Part shown: positions 4,483-57,880 of the stretch, piece by piece
Layout: each line of letters opens with the position of its first letter
Numbering within the stretch: the stretch's first letter is position 1
NCBI GenBank assembly: GCA_937927515.1
Contig: CALBDO010000008.1
Span: 1-64,000 of the forward strand
DNA length: 64,000 bases
Direction: 5' to 3'
Source: Candidatus Kapaibacterium sp.
GTDB lineage: Bacteria > Bacteroidota > Ignavibacteria > Kapaibacteriales > UBA2268
Made by a program: the position numbers and the translations under genes
Notes under the pieces: generated by a model
The model's input: only the letters and a program-made list of their open reading frames with translations
What the model was told of the DNA's origin: nothing
The model's database searches: none

Positions 4483-4770
4483 ATGAACTTATCACCATTG
4501 CACGACAGAGTAATAATTAAACCCTCACAACCAGAAGAAGTAACAAAGGGGGGTATCATTATCCCCGACACAGCAAAGGAAAAGCCTATGCAAGGCGAGG
4601 TAATTGCAGTCGGTCCCGGAAAGTTGACCGAAGACGGGAAAGTTGTCCCTTTAACCGTTAAAGTTGGCGACAAAGTATTGTACGGAAAATACTCAGGAAC
4701 AGAGGTAGAAATTAACGGCGAGCAATTTTTAATTATGCGTGAAAGTGATATTCTCGCAATCATTAAGTAA
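4483..4770 (+). CDS. groES: Co-chaperonin GroES
   Basis: A 95-residue heptameric lid of the GroEL folding chamber. It starts [12 protein letters not shown], carries the mobile loop region [17 protein letters not shown] that contacts GroEL, and ends in ESDILAIIK, all typical. A strong ribosome binding site (AAGGAGGAG) sits about 7 nt before the ATG. It is the first gene of a two-gene operon, 38 nt ahead of groEL and downstream of the CIRCE operator. Confidence 0.98.
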
Positions 4771-4793
4771 ATCAATATGTTATGTTTCACTAA

Positions 4794-6431
<1,638 letters not shown>

Positions 6432-20760: not shown

Positions 20761-22605
20761 ATGGAACGCAAGATTATCGAGCTCGAAGATGTTACAATCC
20801 GCTTTGCTGGGGATTCGGGCGATGGTATGCAACTAACTGGTTCTCGTTTCTCCGACACAAGTGCTTTTTTCGGAACAGATGTAAGCACATTTCCTGATTA
20901 TCCATCCGAGATACGAGCACCCGAGGGAACACTCTATGGTGTTAGTGCATACCAAATTCATTTTGGCTCCAAGGGAGTATACACCCCCGGCGACCAAATC
21001 GATGTACTGGTAGCAATGAATCCAGCATCTTTGAAAGTCAATCTACCTTTCCTAAGAAAAGGAGGCATTCTAATAGTCAATACTGCAAACTTTACTGAAA
21101 AAAATCTTAAACTCGCAAAGTATGAAACCAACCCTCTCGAGGACGACACGCTCAAAGATTATCAAGTTTTTAAAATCAATTTAAATGAGCTCGTTAGTGA
21201 ATTATTAAAGGATAGTGGGCTCACTCCAAAACAAATTGAAAGGACTAAAAATATTTTTGCCCTCGGACTCGCCTACTGGCTTTTCGACTTACCGCTTCGA
21301 CCTACGGAGGAGTGGATTAATCATAAATTTGGGAAAAGGCCTCAAATTGCACAAGCAAACCTAAAAGTCCTACGTGCTGGCTATGAATTTGGTGAGACAA
21401 ACGAGCTTTTCGCAATCCGTTATAAAGTTACCCCAAAGAAATTCGAGCCCGGTATTTATCGAAACATTACTGGAAACGAAGCCGTTGCCCTTGGCTTAGT
21501 AGTAGCAGCCAACAAAGCTAAACTTCCATTGTTCCTGGGTTCATATCCAATTACCCCAGCATCGGAAATTCTCCATTTTATCTCGAGTTACAAGCCTTAT
21601 GGTGTAAGGCATTTGCAAGCAGAGGACGAAATCGGAGGTATAACAAGCGCTATTGGTGCTGCTTATGGCGGAGCTCTTGCAGCAACTTCAACTTCTGGAC
21701 CCGGACTTTCGTTGAAAGTAGAAGCCCTCGGTCTTGCTGTAATACTGGAATTACCTTTGGTCGTGATAGACGTTCAAAGAGCCGGGCCCAGCACAGGCAT
21801 GCCTACAAAAATGGAGCAAGCCGACTTGTTCCTTGCAATGTTTGGTAGGCACGGAGAAGCTCCATTACCCATACTTGCTGCCTCTACACCTACCGATTGC
21901 TTCGATATGACACTCGAAGCCGCTAAGATAGCCATAAAATACATGACACCGGTAATTTTATTAACAGATGGCTATCTCGGGCAAAGCTCCGAAGAATGGA
22001 AAATACCGGATTTAAATACCATACCAGATATTCCAGTTCAGTTTTACACAAATCCAGATTATTTGCCTTACAAACGAGACCCAATTACTTTAGCAAGATA
22101 CTGGGCGATTCCAGGTTCCCCTGGCCTCGAACACCGAATTGGTGGCTTGGAAAAAGAAGACATTACCGGGATAGTCAGCCAAGACCCCTTGAACCATCAG
22201 CGTATGGTTGAACTACGAGCAGAAAAGATTAAGAGAATCCAGCAGGATATTCCAGATGCAGAACTTCTCGGCGACGAAAATGCCGATTTGTTGATAATTG
22301 GCTGGGGAAGCACTTACGGTTCGATTAAAGCAGCCTTCGATAGATTAATCGAAAAGGGCTACAAGCTAGCTTATGTCCACTTGAAATATTTAAATCCATT
22401 CCCAAGGAACTTAGGCTCGATAATTGAAAAGTTCGACAATATCTTTGTACCGGAAAACAATCTTGGTCAGCTTGCCTTCATCCTGCAGGGCACTTTCCTG
22501 AAACCCGTTATTCGATACCATAAGATACAGGGTCGGATTTTCTTGTCCAGCGAGATTGAAAACAAAATTCTGGAAATTTTAAATGCAAAAGGAGGTAAAA
22601 AATGA
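20761..22605 (+). CDS. korA: 2-oxoglutarate (2-oxoacid):ferredoxin oxidoreductase, gamma-alpha fused subunit
   Basis: 614 residues. The N-terminal 190 form the gamma domain (FAGDSGDGMQLTG), followed by the alpha domain with YPITPASEILHF, the EDEIGGITSAIGAAYGG region and TSTSGPGLSLK. With KorB it interconverts 2-oxoglutarate + CoA with succinyl-CoA + CO2, using ferredoxin. It works in an anaerobic or reversible TCA cycle and can run in the CO2-fixing direction. The exact oxoacid is assigned by family resemblance. The start codon is ATG. It overlaps korB by 4 nt (ATGA at 22602), so translation is coupled. Confidence 0.92.
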   Translation: MERKIIELEDVTIRFAGDSGDGMQLTGSRFSDTSAFFGTDVSTFPDYPSEIRAPEGTLYGVSAYQIHFGSKGVYTPGDQIDVLVAMNPASLKVNLPFLRKGGILIVNTANFTEKNLKLAKYETNPLEDDTLKDYQVFKINLNELVSELLKDSGLTPKQIERTKNIFALGLAYWLFDLPLRPTEEWINHKFGKRPQIAQANLKVLRAGYEFGETNELFAIRYKVTPKKFEPGIYRNITGNEAVALGLVVAANKAKLPLFLGSYPITPASEILHFISSYKPYGVRHLQAEDEIGGITSAIGAAYGGALAATSTSGPGLSLKVEALGLAVILELPLVVIDVQRAGPSTGMPTKMEQADLFLAMFGRHGEAPLPILAASTPTDCFDMTLEAAKIAIKYMTPVILLTDGYLGQSSEEWKIPDLNTIPDIPVQFYTNPDYLPYKRDPITLARYWAIPGSPGLEHRIGGLEKEDITGIVSQDPLNHQRMVELRAEKIKRIQQDIPDAELLGDENADLLIIGWGSTYGSIKAAFDRLIEKGYKLAYVHLKYLNPFPRNLGSIIEKFDNIFVPENNLGQLAFILQGTFLKPVIRYHKIQGRIFLSSEIENKILEILNAKGGKK

Positions 22606-23651
22606 CAACTTTAATTGAAAATGTAATACAAAACAAACCCATTACAACAGTGGAGTATACCCCAAAAGATTTTAAATCTCCGTTGGAGGTACGGTGGTGT
22701 TCTGGATGTGGAAGCTACTCGATACTTGCACAAGTTCAAAAAATACTTGCTGGATTGAAGATACCCCGCGAGCAATATGCATTTGTTTCGGGAATTGGTT
22801 GTAGTAGTCGATTTCCATATTATATGCAAACATATGGCATTCACGGCATTCACGGCAGAGCTATTGCAATTGCTACTGGGTTGAAAGTTGCCCGCCCCGA
22901 CCTCTCGGTTTGGGTCGTTACTGGTGATGGCGATTGTATGAGTATTGGTGGAAATCACTTAATCCATGCTGCACGAAGAAATGTTGGATTAAAAGTGCTA
23001 ATGTTCAACAATGAAATATACAGTTTAACAAAAGGACAAGTATCCCCAACAACACAAATTGGTCAACCAACGAAATCGTCGCCTTTTGGAAATATCGACT
23101 ACCCTTTCAATCCAGCCTCGTTAGCTCTTGGTTCTGGAGCAACTTTTGTTGCACGGACATTCGACCGTGACCCCAAACACATGCAAGGAATACTTGAGCG
23201 CGCTGCAAAACACAACGGATTTGCTTTTGTTGAAATATACACAAACTGCGTGATTTACAACGATGGTGCTTTCGACCTTTACACTGCAGCAGACTCACGA
23301 AGAGAACATTCTGTAATGCTTGAACACGGCAAGCCATTAATTTTTGGAGCAAACAACGATAAAGGAATTCGTTTAGATGGATTTACACCAACTGTTGTCT
23401 CTTTAACCGACGGGAAATGGTCTGTCGATGATTTGCTCGTTCATGATGAAAAAGATACTACTTTAGCTTTCATTCTTGCAAATATGACCTACAATTCAAA
23501 TTTACCCCGTCCATTCGGAATTTTCCAATCTATTGAAAAACCTAGCTACGAAGAGCTTACAATAAGACAGATTGAAGAAGCCAAATCGAAAACCCCCGAT
23601 ACTTCTATCGAAACATTATTAAAAGGTGAAGATTACTGGGAAATTAAATAG
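22602..23651 (+). CDS. korB: 2-oxoglutarate (2-oxoacid):ferredoxin oxidoreductase, beta subunit
   Basis: A 349-residue thiamine-diphosphate subunit partner of KorA. It has the Cys pair RWCSGCGSYSI, the ThDP/Mg motif TGDGDCMSIGGNHLIHAARR with downstream NNEIYSLTKGQ, and CVIYNDGAF near 210. A strong Shine-Dalgarno (AAAGGAGG) lies inside the end of korA. It is closed by a shared, perfectly symmetric terminator at 23666. No ferredoxin gene is adjacent. Confidence 0.92.
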   Translation: MTTLIENVIQNKPITTVEYTPKDFKSPLEVRWCSGCGSYSILAQVQKILAGLKIPREQYAFVSGIGCSSRFPYYMQTYGIHGIHGRAIAIATGLKVARPDLSVWVVTGDGDCMSIGGNHLIHAARRNVGLKVLMFNNEIYSLTKGQVSPTTQIGQPTKSSPFGNIDYPFNPASLALGSGATFVARTFDRDPKHMQGILERAAKHNGFAFVEIYTNCVIYNDGAFDLYTAADSRREHSVMLEHGKPLIFGANNDKGIRLDGFTPTVVSLTDGKWSVDDLLVHDEKDTTLAFILANMTYNSNLPRPFGIFQSIEKPSYEELTIRQIEEAKSKTPDTSIETLLKGEDYWEIK

Positions 23652-52222: not shown

Positions 52223-53359
52223 ATGGCTGGTAACAAAAAGAAACATTATCGAATTGCATGGCTTCCAGGGGATGGTATCGGTAAAGATGTTATGGAAGCC
52301 GCACGAATAGTTTTGGACAAAGTTCAACTCGATGCAGAGTATATTCCAGGTGATATCGGTTGGGAATTTTGGTGTAAAGAAGGAGACCCATTACCGCAAA
52401 GAACTATCGATTTGCTTAATAATGTAGACGCAGCTCTTTTTGGGGCAATTACCTCCAAACCTACCAAAGAAGCAGAAGAGGAATTGATACCAGAGTTGAA
52501 GGGAAAAGGTTTAATTTATCGCTCACCCATTGTAAGAATGCGTCAACTTTTCGATTTATACATATGTTTACGACCTTGCAAGGCTTTTGTTGGTAATCCA
52601 CTGAATTACAAGAATGACATCGATTTAGTTGTTTTTCGTGAGAATACAGAAGATTTATACTCTGGGGTGGAGTTCTATCCCGTCCCACAAGAGATAAAGT
52701 TTATTTTACAAAAACTGTCGAAAAACTTTAAATCTTTTGAAAATTTAGAAGCCGATGAGTTTGCTATCTCTTGCAAAATAAATACCAAAAAGGGTTCGGA
52801 ACGAATAATTCGGGCTGCTTTTGAATTTGCTCGACAAAACGGGCGCAGGAAAGTTACTATTGTACACAAAGCAAACGTCGTCCGCGCAACCGATGGTTTA
52901 TTTCTCGAAACAGCAAAAGCAGTTGCGAAAGAATATCCCGAAATACAATTCGACGAGGCAAACGTAGATGCAATTACGATGTGGCTATTGAAAAATCCAA
53001 ACAACTATGATGTGCTTGTTGCACCAAATTTATACGGCGATATTGTTTCCGACCTTTGCGCCCAAATGGTTGGTGGTCTTGGCTTTGGATGTTCAGGTAA
53101 TATTGGGGAGCGACTTGCTGTATTCGAGCCAACTCACGGCTCTGCACCAAAGTATGCTGGGCTATACAAAGTGAACCCAATTGCAACAATACTAGCTGCT
53201 AAAATGATGCTCGAATGGCTCGGAGAATTAGAGAAGGCAAAATTAATTGAAAATGCTGTAGCCGAGGTTATAAAGGAAGGGAAAGTGCGAACATATGATA
53301 TGGGCGGAAACAACACTACTATCGAGATGGCAAAAGCCATAGCGGAAAAAATTAATTAG
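52223..53359 (+). CDS. Isocitrate/homoisocitrate dehydrogenase-family enzyme
   Basis: A 378-residue beta-decarboxylating dehydrogenase. In substrate positions it looks like isocitrate rather than isopropylmalate dehydrogenase: R100-S101 then R105, R107 and R117 in YRSPIVRMRQLFDLYICLRP, and FRENTEDLYSGVE with a Tyr (146) and Lys (216, in VHKANVV). The cofactor site has H305, K310 and Y311 (THGSAPKYAG), the arrangement seen in NADP-dependent isocitrate dehydrogenase. One difference is Ile103, where E. coli has Asn115. It is short (E. coli has 416). It heads a five-gene operon with a CoA-dependent cleavage module, so homoisocitrate or a methylmalate-type substrate remains possible. Confidence 0.85.
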   Translation: MAGNKKKHYRIAWLPGDGIGKDVMEAARIVLDKVQLDAEYIPGDIGWEFWCKEGDPLPQRTIDLLNNVDAALFGAITSKPTKEAEEELIPELKGKGLIYRSPIVRMRQLFDLYICLRPCKAFVGNPLNYKNDIDLVVFRENTEDLYSGVEFYPVPQEIKFILQKLSKNFKSFENLEADEFAISCKINTKKGSERIIRAAFEFARQNGRRKVTIVHKANVVRATDGLFLETAKAVAKEYPEIQFDEANVDAITMWLLKNPNNYDVLVAPNLYGDIVSDLCAQMVGGLGFGCSGNIGERLAVFEPTHGSAPKYAGLYKVNPIATILAAKMMLEWLGELEKAKLIENAVAEVIKEGKVRTYDMGGNNTTIEMAKAIAEKIN

Positions 53360-53371
53360 GAAAGGTACAAT

Positions 53372-54265
53372 ATGGACATTCTCATTCACGAAGTTGGCCT
53401 GCGAGATGGTTTACAAATGGAAAGTGAACCAGTACCGACAATAACAAAAATGCAATGGGCCGAGACCCTTGCCGACTCTGGTTTAGACATAATCCAACTT
53501 GGCTCATTTGTAAATCCCAAGGTTCTTCCACAGATGGCAGACACTGATGAATTATTTGAGGAGGTTAAAAAAAGTGGAAAATTCAAGGCAAAATTTTCTG
53601 CTTTAATATTAAATGAAAAAGGATTCGAAAGAGCTATCAAAGCTGATGTAGATTTAATTTGTATGGGTGTCTCTGCAAGCGAAACCCACTCTAAGAAAAA
53701 CACGGGGATGACTGTCGAAGAAGCTCTCAATAGAATCATTAAAATTGCAACTGATGCGATGAGTATTGGAAAAGATGTACAAGTCTCTGTACAATCTGCC
53801 TTCGGCTGCGGGTACGAGGGTGATATACCAGAAGAACGAGTCTACGGAATTGTCGAGCAATATTTTAACAATGGAATAAACAAAATCAGCCTTGCTGATA
53901 CGGCTGGTTACGCCTACCCTACCAAAGTCGAAAGAATGTTCACATACTTACAGAAATTGAACCCTAAAGCAGAATTTGCTTGCCATTTTCACAACACATA
54001 TGGTTTAGGAATGGTAAACACATACGTTGCAATGCAAAATGGAGTAAAATACATTGAAACAGCCTTTGGCGGGCTTGGAGGTTGCCCATTTACCAAACAG
54101 CCCGCTGGAAATGTTTGCACAGAGGACTTCGTTTATATGCTTCAAAAAATGAACTTACGTACTGATATAGTAATAAGTAAAATCATTTCAGTTGCGAAAT
54201 ATGCAAGCGGATTTTTCGTAAAAGATTTACCTGGTTATCTACATAAAATTTGGAGAGAGCAATGA
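53372..54265 (+). CDS. HMG-CoA lyase-family C-C lyase
   Basis: 297 residues, DRE-TIM metallolyase. It has R11-D12 in VGLRDGLQ, D176 in SLADTAG, metal ligands H205 and H207 in CHFHNTYG, C238 in GGLGGCPF and N247. Compared with HMG-CoA lyase as I recall it, two sites differ: the Glu of the ETTSF-type motif is Gln42 (IIQLGSF), and the Asp after the second His is Asn208. These changes suggest a related acyl-CoA substrate such as citramalyl-, citryl- or homocitryl-CoA rather than HMG-CoA. The ATGA at 54262-54265 couples it to the CoA-transferase. Confidence 0.85.
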   Translation: MDILIHEVGLRDGLQMESEPVPTITKMQWAETLADSGLDIIQLGSFVNPKVLPQMADTDELFEEVKKSGKFKAKFSALILNEKGFERAIKADVDLICMGVSASETHSKKNTGMTVEEALNRIIKIATDAMSIGKDVQVSVQSAFGCGYEGDIPEERVYGIVEQYFNNGINKISLADTAGYAYPTKVERMFTYLQKLNPKAEFACHFHNTYGLGMVNTYVAMQNGVKYIETAFGGLGGCPFTKQPAGNVCTEDFVYMLQKMNLRTDIVISKIISVAKYASGFFVKDLPGYLHKIWREQ

Positions 54266-55455
54266 AAATCTTGGATGGGATTAGAGTTCTCGATTTAACA
54301 AACGTACTCTCTGGACCATTTGCAACATTGCATCTGGCTTTGCTTGGGGCAGAAGTTATAAAAATTGAGAACCCCAAAGATGGCGACCTTGCTCGCAAGC
54401 TGGGCTGTGTGACCGAGTACAACAAGATGCTTATGGGAACAAGTTTCCTTGCCCAGAATGCAAACAAGAAATCTTGTACCCTAAACTTGAAAGATGAACG
54501 AGGAAAAGAAATTTTTAAAAAACTTGTCGCAATTTCTGATGTTGTGGTTGAAAACTTCAGACCTAATGTTATGGACCGTTTAGGACTGGGTTATTCTGTA
54601 TTGAAAGAAATAAATCCGAGATTAATCTATTGTGCAATTTCTGGATTTGGACAAACTGGACCAGATGCCTTTAAACCCGCTTACGACCAAATCATCCAAG
54701 GACTTAGTGGTGTTATGGCAATAAATGGAGATAAAAGACTTAACCCACTACGTTGTGGTTTTCCCGTCTGCGACACGGTCGGAGGCTTAAACGCTGCATT
54801 CGCAATTTTAGCAGCATTGTTTCATCGAGAAAGAACTGGCGAAGGTCAATTCATCGATGTAGCCTTGCTGGATTCAATAATGCCACTCATGGGATGGGTC
54901 GTTGCAAATCTCATGCTCGGCGGTCAACATCCAGAATTACTTGGAAACGACAATTTCACAGCTGCTCCCTCTGGCACTTTTCGCACGCAAGACGGTTACA
55001 TAAATATCGCTGCAAATAAACAAGAGCAATGGGAAACTCTTGCCGATTTGCTTGGACTTTCGCATTTAAAAGAAGACCCAAGGTTCAAAGAAAGAGACAT
55101 TCGCAAGAAAAATCGCTACGAACTAAACCCACTAATCGAAGAAAAACTTGTTGAAAAGCCAACAAAGTATTGGGTGGATTTGTTGAACAACAACGATATA
55201 CCCGCTGGAGAAATTCTTTCATTGGAAGATGCATTGAACCAACCACAGATTCAAGTTCGTAATACTTTTTCGACCCTTGAGGTCGATGGTATAGGGTTTA
55301 TCAAAGTTTTCAATCTGACTGCAAAATTTGAAAAGACGCCGGGTTTTGCCGAGTCTCCACCACCAAAACTTTCTCAGCACACAGAGGAGATACTCTCTCT
55401 TGTAGGCATTAGTTCCGACGAAGTTCGAGCATTAAGAAATGAAGGAGTTGTTTAA
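54262..55455 (+). CDS. Family III CoA-transferase (CaiB/BaiF)
   Basis: A 397-residue formyl-CoA-transferase-type enzyme. It has ILDGIRVLDLTNVLSGPF, LGAEVIKIENP, VVENFRPNVMDRLG and the catalytic Asp204 in VALLDSIMPL. Members that use succinyl-CoA to activate malate, citramalate or glutarate belong to this family. The start overlaps the lyase stop by 4 nt; an in-frame TTG at 54250 is less likely. Placed between the lyase and the hydro-lyase, it probably makes the CoA ester that the lyase cleaves. Confidence 0.88.
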   Translation: MKILDGIRVLDLTNVLSGPFATLHLALLGAEVIKIENPKDGDLARKLGCVTEYNKMLMGTSFLAQNANKKSCTLNLKDERGKEIFKKLVAISDVVVENFRPNVMDRLGLGYSVLKEINPRLIYCAISGFGQTGPDAFKPAYDQIIQGLSGVMAINGDKRLNPLRCGFPVCDTVGGLNAAFAILAALFHRERTGEGQFIDVALLDSIMPLMGWVVANLMLGGQHPELLGNDNFTAAPSGTFRTQDGYINIAANKQEQWETLADLLGLSHLKEDPRFKERDIRKKNRYELNPLIEEKLVEKPTKYWVDLLNNNDIPAGEILSLEDALNQPQIQVRNTFSTLEVDGIGFIKVFNLTAKFEKTPGFAESPPPKLSQHTEEILSLVGISSDEVRALRNEGVV

Positions 55456-55469
55456 ACAAGGAGGTATAA

Positions 55470-56759
55470 ATGGGACAGACATTAGTTCAAAAGATACTTG
55501 CAAGGGCAACTGGTCGAAGCTTTGTTTCAGTGGGGGATATTTTAGAGCCCGCTGTGGATTTAGCAATGTCGCACGAGAATGCCGCATTGGTCATAAACCA
55601 ATTTCTTGAAATATACAAAGGTACAGGGCTGGAACCAAAAGTATGGGACCCCGATAAAATAGCCATTATTTTCGACCATAGAGTGCCAGCAGAGAGTGCA
55701 AAAACAGCAACAAATCAGAAAATAGTTCGAGATTTTGTTGCTAATCAGGGAATTAAAAAATTTCACGACATACGTACCGACGAGATGGGAATCTGCCATC
55801 AGATACTGCCCGAAAATGGATATATCCGACCGGGATATGTTGTAGTTGGAACAGATAGCCACACAACTAGCCATGGAGCACTTGGAGCTTTCTCATTTGG
55901 AATTGGCGCTACCGAAATGGCTTCGGTATGGACTTTGGGTAGGATTTTGAATGTTCAAGTGCCAGAAACTATAAAAATAACAGTAGATGGAAAATTTCAA
56001 AAGTTTGTCGAGCCTAAAGATTTAATACTTTACATTGTTGGACTTCTCGGAGCCGAGGGAGCAAATTTCAAAGTAATAGAGTTTCATGGCGAAACAATAA
56101 GAAATCTAAGCACATCGGGTAGATTAACAATCTGTAATATGACAGTCGAGGCTGGAGCAACTTCTGGAATTGTTCCACCAGATGAAGAAACAATAAGATA
56201 CCTTAGGGAGGTCGCCAATGTCCAAGACGAAATTGAAATAATATGCCCAGACGAAGACGCAAAGTACGAACGAGAAATAAAAATAGACGTAACGAACTTG
56301 GAGCCGCAGATTGCCTGCCCTCATACTGTTGATAATGTCAAACCAATTTCTGAGGTAGCTGGAGTAAAGATAAATCAAATTGTTCTTGGTTCGTGCACTA
56401 ATGGTCGATTAGAAGATTTGGAAGCTGCGGCAAAAATTCTCAAAGGTAAAAAAATAGCAAAAGGAGTACGAATGCTTGTTTTTCCAGCTTCAGGTAGAAT
56501 TCTCAAGGAGGCAATACGCCGTGGCTACATTCTCGATTTAATGGAAGCCGGAGCAGTGGTAGTTAATCCTGGCTGCGGCCCTTGTTTGGGAGTTCACCAG
56601 GGAGCACTCGGCGACGGAGAAATTGCTCTATCGACAACAAATCGCAACTTTAAAGGACGAATGGGGAACCCAAATTCAGAGGTATATCTTTGCTCTCCAA
56701 GTGTCGCTGCTGTCAGTGCGATACATGGTGTTATTACAGACCCAAGAAATGGAGGCTGA
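55470..56759 (+). CDS. Aconitase-superfamily large subunit (LeuC/HacA type)
   Basis: A 429-residue [4Fe-4S] hydro-lyase subunit. The cluster Cys are C309 (VLGSCTNGR), C369 and C372 (NPGCGPCLG). GTDSHTTSHGALGAFSFGIG is conserved. The length fits the short LeuC2/HacA form, not E. coli LeuC (466) or aconitase (about 890). It isomerises hydroxy-tricarboxylates or 3-alkylmalates. A strong Shine-Dalgarno (AAGGAGGT) is present, 14 nt after the CoA-transferase. The substrate is not decidable from this subunit. Confidence 0.88.
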   Translation: MGQTLVQKILARATGRSFVSVGDILEPAVDLAMSHENAALVINQFLEIYKGTGLEPKVWDPDKIAIIFDHRVPAESAKTATNQKIVRDFVANQGIKKFHDIRTDEMGICHQILPENGYIRPGYVVVGTDSHTTSHGALGAFSFGIGATEMASVWTLGRILNVQVPETIKITVDGKFQKFVEPKDLILYIVGLLGAEGANFKVIEFHGETIRNLSTSGRLTICNMTVEAGATSGIVPPDEETIRYLREVANVQDEIEIICPDEDAKYEREIKIDVTNLEPQIACPHTVDNVKPISEVAGVKINQIVLGSCTNGRLEDLEAAAKILKGKKIAKGVRMLVFPASGRILKEAIRRGYILDLMEAGAVVVNPGCGPCLGVHQGALGDGEIALSTTNRNFKGRMGNPNSEVYLCSPSVAAVSAIHGVITDPRNGG

Positions 56760-56760
56760 A

Positions 56761-57258
56761 ATGGGAAAAGTCATTTATGTATTAGGAGATGATATTTCAA
56801 CGGACATAATCTATCCCGGAAGGTATATGGCAACAGTCCTTCCAAGCGAAACGCCGAAGTATGTTTTCGACGATATAGAAGAATTGCACGAAATTTTAGT
56901 CAAGGGGAAATTTCAACCGGGGGACTTTATTGTAGCTGGAAAGAATTTTGGTTGCGGTTCCTCGCGGGAGCAAGCTGTCTCCACATTGCGGGGTTACGAC
57001 GTAAGAATTATTGCAAAAAATTTTGCCAGAATTTTTTTGCAAAATAGCATCAACCTTGGATTACCAACGTTTATTTGTCCAGAAATTGAAGCGGAAATAG
57101 GAGACGAGTTGGAAATCATCGATGACAGAGTGATTAACAAAACAAAGAACAAAGAGTTCAAACTGCAACTGCATCATAAATCCCGACAAGCAATTATAGA
57201 TGCAGGAGGGTTAATTCCATACACGAGGATGTTATTGTTGCAAGAGAGAATCAAATAG
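56761..57258 (+). CDS. Aconitase-superfamily small subunit (LeuD/HacB type)
   Basis: A 165-residue swivel-domain partner of the preceding subunit. It has DDISTDIIYPGRYMAT near the start and GKNFGCGSSREQAV. The specificity loop after GR reads Y22-M-A-T, with no Arg; an Arg there has been tied to homoaconitase activity in archaeal enzymes. The ATG lies 1 nt after the large-subunit stop, with GGAGG inside that gene. Last gene of the operon starting at 52223. Confidence 0.88.
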   Translation: MGKVIYVLGDDISTDIIYPGRYMATVLPSETPKYVFDDIEELHEILVKGKFQPGDFIVAGKNFGCGSSREQAVSTLRGYDVRIIAKNFARIFLQNSINLGLPTFICPEIEAEIGDELEIIDDRVINKTKNKEFKLQLHHKSRQAIIDAGGLIPYTRMLLLQERIK

Positions 57259-57395
57259 TTCCTAAAATTTCAAAAAAATTAACAAGGATAAGTTCTTGTG
57301 ATAAAAAGAGGATTATTTTGAAGTTAAAAATAAAGTTGGTAATCTTCGTCGTAATGAAAAGTGAAAAAATGACGAAGAAAATTTTAAGATGAATT

Positions 57396-57423
57396 TTGTC
57401 AATAAATTTATTTTTTTTAATTT
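57396..57423 (+). promoter_or_regulatory. Possible promoter of the tRNA-secE-rpl operon
   Basis: TTGTCA, a 16 nt AT spacer and TAATTT lie 15-45 nt before the first tRNA. The spacing and placement suit a sigma-70-type promoter, though the surrounding AT richness makes chance matches likely. Confidence 0.4.
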
Positions 57424-57438
57424 AGTAGTCTCTAAAAA

Positions 57439-57521
57439 GGGCAGGTACCGAAGCGGTCAAACGGGGCAGACTGTAAATCTGCTGGGGTATCCCTTCGGAG
57501 GTTCGAATCCTTCCCTGCCCA
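57439..57521 (+). tRNA. tRNA-Tyr (GTA)
   Basis: A class II tRNA with perfect 7 bp acceptor stem GGGCAGG/CCTGCCC. The anticodon loop CTGTAAA gives GTA. It has a long variable arm and a GGTTCGAATCC T arm. CCA is not encoded. Confidence 0.96.
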
Positions 57522-57527
57522 CGAGTT

Positions 57528-57600
57528 GCGGGAGTAGCTCAGTTGGTAGAGCATCAGCCTTCCAAGCTGAGGGTCGCGGGTTCGAGTCCCGTTTCCCGCT
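57528..57600 (+). tRNA. tRNA-Gly (TCC)
   Basis: Acceptor GCGGGAG/TTCCCGC, D arm GCTC...GAGC, anticodon loop CTTCCAA (TCC) in stem TCAGC/GCTGA and T arm GCGGGTTCGAGTCCCGT. Nearly identical to the next tRNA. Confidence 0.96.
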
Positions 57601-57616
57601 CGGGGTGAATAGGAGT

Positions 57617-57689
<73 letters not shown>

Positions 57690-57700
57690 CTCGAAATCAA

Positions 57701-57773
57701 GCTGATGTAGCTCAGTTGGTAGAGCGCTTCCTTGGTAAGGAAGAGGTCACCGGTTCAATCCCGGTCATCAGCT
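57701..57773 (+). tRNA. tRNA-Thr (GGT)
   Basis: Acceptor GCTGATG/CATCAGC, anticodon stem CTTCC/GGAAG with loop TTGGTAA (GGT), T arm CCGGTTCAATCCCGG. Confidence 0.96.
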
Positions 57774-57780
57774 CGTATAA

Positions 57781-57853
57781 AGGGGTGTAGCTCAATTGGC
57801 AGAGCGGCGGTCTCCAAAACCGTAGGCTGAGGGTTCGAGTCCTTCCACCCCTG
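57781..57853 (+). tRNA. tRNA-Trp (CCA)
   Basis: Acceptor AGGGGTG/CACCCCT, anticodon loop CTCCAAA (CCA), T arm GAGGGTTCGAGTCCTTC. It lies 27 nt before secE. Confidence 0.96.
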
Positions 57854-57880
57854 CTAATTTTTTTATTAAAAGGTCCGTAG

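Follow-up and report, generated by a model that had tools for sequence, protein, structure and literature searches.

The stretch of DNA analysed here (the window) comprises positions 1 to 64,000 of contig CALBDO010000008.1 from Candidatus Kapaibacterium sp. and contains a five-gene operon at positions 52223-57258. The operon encodes a beta-decarboxylating dehydrogenase (52223..53359), an enzyme of the hydroxymethylglutaryl-CoA (HMG-CoA) lyase family (53372..54265), a family III CoA-transferase (54262..55455) and the large and small subunits of a LeuCD-type hydro-lyase (LeuC, 55470..56759; LeuD, about 56761..57258). Tight packing with coupled starts had been noted in the first-pass annotation and was borne out: all five open reading frames (ORFs) lie on the plus strand with tight spacing. 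The transferase starts at an ATG (54262) that shares bases with the lyase stop codon and is preceded by GGAGAG, and the LeuD ATG at 56761, which was picked as the start for the GGAGG ahead of it, lies one base past the LeuC stop codon.

The lyase scored 286.9 bits with NF004283, the model of the PRK05692 HMG-CoA lyase subfamily (cut-off 246), matched PDB 1ydo with E=1.5e-59 and reached 88 bits with the homocitrate synthase model (cut-off 413.55). An Arg-Asp pair, two His, a Cys and an Asn, which we take to be the catalytic residues, align with the PDB entries and are conserved. The nearest PDB entry to the transferase was 9br6, a succinate--hydroxymethylglutarate CoA-transferase (E=6.2e-78), whose two named acids are similar in shape to those proposed below; the top NCBIfam model was succinate--glutarate CoA-transferase (298 bits, under the cut-off of 750). 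LeuC matched TIGR01343 (hacA_fam) with 542.2 bits, above the cut-off of 385.7, and the subfamily models that it passed span homoaconitase and isopropylmalate isomerase (IPMI). LeuD, scanned as the translation from the ATG at 56749, scored 120.4 bits with TIGR02087 (cut-off 108.95) and matched the homoaconitase small subunit of PDB 2pkp with E=9.6e-28. For the dehydrogenase, the top NCBIfam model was AksF2 homoisocitrate dehydrogenase (356.6 bits, under the cut-off of 540), and homoisocitrate dehydrogenase was the top model for all three operon dehydrogenases scanned, every time under the cut-off. LeuC and LeuD thus clear subfamily cut-offs; the dehydrogenase and the transferase match related models and clear none.

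A lyase scan of 84,980 species genomes gave 292 stretches encoding a relative, and the best 80 of these, from genomes other than that of the window, were kept as loci (L numbers below). All five genes were present in 41 of the 80, and in 38 loci, from several phyla, their order was identical to that in the window. This recurrence exceeds chance. The three loci with another order were L033 and L039, where the dehydrogenase gene comes last, and L049, in which an ORF called with too early a start upsets the order. Among the other 39 loci, a contig end may have truncated 21, and 18 were uncut. The transferase was found in 68 of the 80 loci. Going by the names of their genomes, the loci come from Ignavibacteria/Kapabacteria, Elusimicrobia, Holophagae, Gemmatimonadota, Zixibacteria, Eisenbacteria, Myxococcota, Anaerolineae and further groups. 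In 57 near-full-length cases, the dehydrogenase was 61-88% identical to that of the window. In L033 and L039, the dehydrogenase and the transferase were 67-72% identical to those of the window; the same operons (L033 9467-11287, L039 3537-5360) carry a distant LeuCD homologue, with LeuC 53% and LeuD 42-45% identical, and this exchange in two Elusimicrobia is a natural swap. At L014, L019, L022 and L029, lyase relatives (58-62% identical) had no partner gene within about 7 kb on each side.

Residues expected to bear on the substrate were also conserved. The substrate loop of the operon dehydrogenase, YRSPIVRMRQ, was found in 56 of 58 rows and has Ile at the position where isocitrate dehydrogenases carry Asn. 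The LeuD motif GR[FY]MATVLPxETP was present in 44 of 46 proteins and missing from those of L033 and L039. At least 78 of 81 family rows, the window included, have Gln instead of Glu in the lyase motif I-E-x-x-S-F-V. Glu is found in all three aligned PDB HMG-CoA lyases and may define HMG-CoA lyase proper. Because the motifs of the dehydrogenase, LeuD and the lyase are conserved and the lyase carries Gln, the module appears to have one common, narrow substrate other than HMG.

The genome that carries the window (2.39 Mb, 98.3% complete) was then searched. The operon lyase was its sole match to PF00682 (HMGL family), which agrees with the earlier remark that no synthase lies beside the operon; no homocitrate synthase, leuA or CimA was found by this search. 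IlvD was not found in the genome, nor was any leuB-type gene other than that of the operon. Leucine and isoleucine synthesis of the usual kind is absent from this genome, and the operon is the sole LeuBCD-like set found in it. The only family III CoA-transferase was that of the operon, and a DapB-like gene was present. There were two Iso_dh proteins, the operon dehydrogenase and one with the classical isocitrate motif RSLNVALR, and two aconitase-family proteins, including a long one of 765 aa. Citrate synthase was represented by a single PF00285 match, a 426-aa ORF followed by a gene that reads by eye as malate dehydrogenase. The ordinary C6 branch of the tricarboxylic acid (TCA) cycle is therefore present, and neither ATP-citrate lyase nor citryl-CoA synthetase/lyase was found to stand in for citrate synthase in this genome. 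The first-pass annotation had named a complete conventional cycle together with leuA and leuB elsewhere in the genome as evidence that would refute its proposal; this applies in part, as a conventional C6 branch was found, and leuA and another leuB-type gene were not.

Genes that could deliver the substrate were found beside the module in some relatives. At L033 (Elusimicrobiota), an atoDA-like CoA-transferase, an L-piperidine-6-carboxylate (P6C) dehydrogenase (739 bits, cut-off 730), a protein with an AlaDh_PNT domain and a saccharopine dehydrogenase (PF16653, 286 bits) precede the module on one strand. The AlaDh_PNT-domain protein of L033 and L038 is presumably a lysine-ketoglutarate reductase. 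L038 (Elusimicrobiota) carries the module followed by the same type of reductase with saccharopine dehydrogenase and by an aldehyde ferredoxin oxidoreductase. At L036 (Anaerolineae, Chloroflexota), a DAO-family oxidase and a P6C dehydrogenase (769 bits) lie directly upstream of the module. L039 (Elusimicrobia) has P6C dehydrogenase, the module and a class III aminotransferase; its P6C dehydrogenase, located at a contig end, is 82% identical to that of L033 and scored 708 bits, under the cut-off of 730. Enzymes leading from lysine to 2-aminoadipate were thus linked to the module in four of the 80 loci, and the pair of reductase and saccharopine dehydrogenase in two of them (L033 and L038). A class III aminotransferase occurred in 5/80 loci (the one scanned matched the 4-aminobutyrate and 2-aminoadipate transaminase models under their cut-offs), aldehyde ferredoxin oxidoreductase in 5/80, atoDA-like CoA-transferase in 6/80 and 2-oxoacid:ferredoxin oxidoreductase genes in 6/80. 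Because these neighbours complement each other and all end at 2-oxoadipate, this acid is indicated as the substrate. Homoisocitrate and methylmalate skeletons had both been allowed for in the first-pass annotation; the former gained from the lysine genes that adjoin the module outside the phylum of the window, and the latter is kept as the foremost rival.

In an unrooted transferase tree of 21 rows, L033, L036, L038 and L039 fell in two places, and the window shared its side of a supported branch (97/83) with L033, L036, L039 and L026. The genome of L026, an Ignavibacteria metagenome-assembled genome, contains an L-lysine 6-transaminase gene (TIGR03251, 624 bits, cut-off 520.8) divergent from a P6C dehydrogenase gene (802 bits). 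The L062 genome has a run of reductase, saccharopine dehydrogenase and P6C dehydrogenase away from the module, and saccharopine dehydrogenase adjoins P6C dehydrogenase in the L071 and L086 genomes too; these three count once, because the transferases are near-copies of that of L062. The transferases of these loci, whose genomes are named Gemmatimonas, Latescibacterota and Fibrobacter, are near-identical, and at least some of the bins are probably misnamed. The five loci with aldehyde ferredoxin oxidoreductase by the module were L038, L059, L065, L074 and L085. P6C dehydrogenase was adjacent in none of them, and the L065 and L074 genomes have it elsewhere; the oxidoreductase may replace P6C dehydrogenase in the five.

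Taken together, the operon is probably a catabolic module in which the half of the alpha-aminoadipate pathway that elongates the chain runs in reverse, from 2-oxoadipate to acetyl-CoA and 2-oxoglutarate; the substrates, the direction and the overall reaction are all inferred. The gene set is still best explained by the general logic of the first-pass annotation, in which a 2-oxo acid is reductively carboxylated and isomerised, takes CoA from succinyl-CoA and is cleaved to acetyl-CoA and an oxo acid. Lysine would be converted via 2-aminoadipate to 2-oxoadipate, the input of the module. The dehydrogenase, as a homoisocitrate dehydrogenase acting as 2-oxoadipate reductive carboxylase, would add CO2 to give homoisocitrate, and LeuCD, with LeuC as the proposed large subunit of a homoaconitase, would convert it through homoaconitate to homocitrate. 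A succinyl-CoA:homocitrate CoA-transferase would then form homocitryl-CoA, which a homocitryl-CoA lyase would split to acetyl-CoA and 2-oxoglutarate. To our knowledge, neither of these last two enzymes has a described counterpart. A 2-oxoacid:ferredoxin oxidoreductase could convert 2-oxoglutarate to succinyl-CoA and CO2, which would restore the CoA donor and the CO2 spent, so that the net conversion would be 2-oxoadipate to acetyl-CoA and succinate without O2. A candidate for this step is korAB of the window, encoding the alpha and beta subunits of a 2-oxoacid:acceptor oxidoreductase (20761..23651, plus strand), which lies about 29 kb from the operon and outside it; the alpha subunit scored 655.8 bits with TIGR03710 (cut-off 482.75) and the top match of the beta subunit, 270.4 bits, was under its cut-off. 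On balance, we lean towards an undescribed, O2-independent lysine degradation in several phyla, with the reaction 2-oxoadipate + CO2 + NADH + succinyl-CoA -> acetyl-CoA + 2-oxoglutarate + succinate.

Several observations weigh against 2-oxoadipate as the substrate. The homoisocitrate dehydrogenase and homoaconitase equivalog scores were all under the cut-off, and LeuC was marginally nearer to an IPMI/citramalate isomerase (PDB 4nqy, 424.7 bits) than to a homoaconitase (4kp2, 411.4 bits). The LeuD loop reads GRYMAT, against GPYLRT in a methanogen homoaconitase, and so lacks the Arg that presumably holds the extra carboxylate. All 18 uncut loci mentioned above lacked at least one module gene nearby, and four of them had the lyase alone. 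P6C dehydrogenase adjoined the module in just 3/80 loci (L033, L036 and L039). Among the neighbours that were typed, none beside the window operon or beside its closest relatives L009-L011 was recognised as a lysine gene, and the genome of the window had no P6C dehydrogenase over the cut-off (the highest-scoring aldehyde dehydrogenase reached 399 bits against a cut-off of 730). In L033 and L039, where lysine genes adjoin the module, the LeuD loop is different again (GRFLNITDKLETP). Because this loop likewise lacks Arg, the residue may be dispensable here, or its function may be taken by another residue.

Co-occurrence in the window's own phylum was surveyed with a sample of 394 genomes, in which the transferase search gave 18 matches; 12 were kept (at least 71% identity) and 6 were dropped (34-40%). 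P6C dehydrogenase was surveyed in 80 genomes, made up of 45 behind lyase loci, the 12 transferase-positive genomes of the own phylum and 23 chosen transferase-negative ones. With E-values up to 1e-160 accepted, none of the 12 positives had it, versus 9 of the 23 negatives, which are not a fair sample, at least 10 having been drawn from the list of lysine-6-dehydrogenase matches. Of the 45 genomes behind lyase loci, a set that includes loci with the lyase alone or with lyase and transferase, 16 had it; 15 of these passed the cut-off, and the remaining one is that of L039, at its contig end. A strong lysine-6-dehydrogenase match (E<=1e-80) was found in only 4 of the 12 positives and in 41 of the 382 others; five more of the 12 had weak matches (26-32% identity). 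In eight lysine-6-dehydrogenase neighbourhoods, no lysine gene was found by search or by eye. The lyase was not seen within 1.5 kb on each side of the transferase in 4 of the 11 other own-phylum positives (G196, G287, G314 and G384). Own-phylum co-occurrence therefore gives the 2-oxoadipate reading no help.

In favour of the 2-oxoadipate reading, the genome of the window encodes a 372-aa protein of the saccharopine dehydrogenase family (PF16653; L092 1144-2262, corresponding to C5:31394-32509 of this genome), whose nearest PDB entry was 3abi (PH1688, E=9.7e-73). PH1688 is, as we assume, L-lysine 6-dehydrogenase, and the protein is listed as lysine-6-dehydrogenase-like on this likeness. By eye, its gene has a triosephosphate isomerase, an LptC-like protein and a metallo-hydrolase as neighbours, with no lysine gene cluster. 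A 507-aa aldehyde dehydrogenase at L089 had alpha-ketoglutaric semialdehyde dehydrogenase as its top match, under the cut-off. At L009, a close relative of the window, an arginase-family gene (4726-5634) lies upstream of the operon, and catabolism of other amino acids may be clustered there.

Of the other explanations, a rather unlikely one is that 2-oxobutyrate and CO2 would yield 3-methylmalate, citramalate and (R)-citramalyl-CoA, which would be split to acetyl-CoA and pyruvate in threonine or methionine breakdown. (R)-Citramalyl-CoA lyase, of Chloroflexus origin, belongs to the HMGL family. According to the part of the source available, a lyase and transferase pair of such chemistry is known, (R)-citramalyl-CoA lyase (EC 4.1.3.46) and succinyl-CoA:(R)-citramalate CoA-transferase (EC 2.8.3.20) (PMC8307300). 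As far as that part goes, the pair resembles the module in coupling succinyl-CoA/succinate CoA transfer to a reversible lyase and differs in the acid, and the module adds a dehydrogenase and LeuCD. The citramalate route would also suit the Arg-less LeuD and the slight preference of LeuC. However, the single PF00291 protein of the genome (threonine-dehydratase family; L007 1465-2412, contig C5 of this genome) matched 0/80 loci when used as a query, whereas lysine genes do occur there, and it fits beta-hydroxyaspartate dehydratase (BhcB, 443 bits, cut-off 550) better than threonine dehydratase. The isoleucine-making direction is unlikely, since no IlvD was found. The LeuD loop alone had pointed to citramalate; 2-oxoadipate is favoured over it because of the neighbouring genes.

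It is also unlikely that the module shortens another 2-oxo acid, such as a longer 2-oxodicarboxylate or leucine-derived 2-oxoisocaproate. The LeuBCD-like architecture would permit this and the Arg-less loop would suit an uncharged side chain, but genes of no such route were recognised among the typed part of the neighbours. Quite improbable is the biosynthetic direction, in which acetyl-CoA and 2-oxoglutarate would give 2-oxoadipate and 2-aminoadipate and succinate would receive the energy of the thioester. Every step should be reversible in principle and no homocitrate synthase was found, but there would be no driving force without thioester hydrolysis, and the P6C dehydrogenase and saccharopine-type enzymes among the neighbours are catabolic types. 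Moreover, lysine synthesis by the module is less likely, and the aminoadipate route seemingly unneeded, because of the DapB-like gene. The weakest is the first-pass proposal that, in a reductive TCA cycle, a citryl-CoA module acting on 2-oxoglutarate takes the place of ATP-citrate lyase. Enzymes of these types could do so and korAB lies in the window, but the proposal is very improbable and was dropped, because citrate synthase, the long aconitase and the RSLNVALR dehydrogenase make a bypass unneeded, the Asn of the isocitrate loop is missing from the operon dehydrogenase, LeuD lacks the Arg, and it is lysine genes, with no recognised TCA-cleavage genes, that recur beside the module in some relatives.

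The alpha-aminoadipate pathway of lysine biosynthesis uses homocitrate synthase, homoaconitase and homoisocitrate dehydrogenase. The proposed intermediates of the module are identical to those of this pathway, and the dehydrogenase and LeuCD-type hydro-lyase are homologous, but the module would run in the opposite direction, with a CoA-transferase and an HMGL-type lyase that keep the thioester in place of homocitrate synthase. Citrate cleavage in the reductive TCA cycle involves ATP-citrate lyase or citryl-CoA synthetase/lyase, the lyase being of a different family from that of the module. Reductive carboxylation, isomerisation and CoA-dependent splitting of a tertiary hydroxy acid would be shared, whereas the proposed substrate of the module is one carbon longer and a CoA-transferase replaces ATP-driven activation. 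The module belongs to neither system, because no homocitrate synthase, ATP-citrate lyase or citryl-CoA lyase was found.

For 2-oxoadipate, the available part of one source gives oxidative decarboxylation to glutaryl-CoA and conversion to 2-hydroxyglutarate by the O2-dependent HglS in P. putida and plants (PMC7286885), and according to an excerpt of another, almost all of eleven MetaCyc lysine routes end at glutaryl-CoA (PMC5653290). Compared with lysine catabolism via 2-aminoadipate and 2-oxoadipate as given in these parts, the module has upstream genes of that catabolism (P6C dehydrogenase) adjoining it in some relatives, but it would carboxylate and split 2-oxoadipate, with no O2 and no glutaryl-CoA. 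In the open-licence literature of PubMed Central, no description of a reverse homocitrate route or of homocitryl-CoA was found. If the proposed route is correct, it would be a third, anaerobic fate of 2-oxoadipate beside glutaryl-CoA and HglS, could account for lysine use in Ignavibacteria, Kapabacteria, Elusimicrobiota, Holophagae, Gemmatimonadota and others, and would be a further case of a biosynthetic pathway reversed by exchanging the synthase for a CoA-transferase and a lyase. The route is directly testable, as the five genes are present in this order in three strains named Geothrix (L042, L046 and L083).

Downstream of the operon, tRNA genes begin at 57439. The ORF listed at 57389-57790 covers the genes for tRNA Tyr, Gly, Gly and Thr and the start of that for Trp (57439-57854) and is unlikely to be a real gene.

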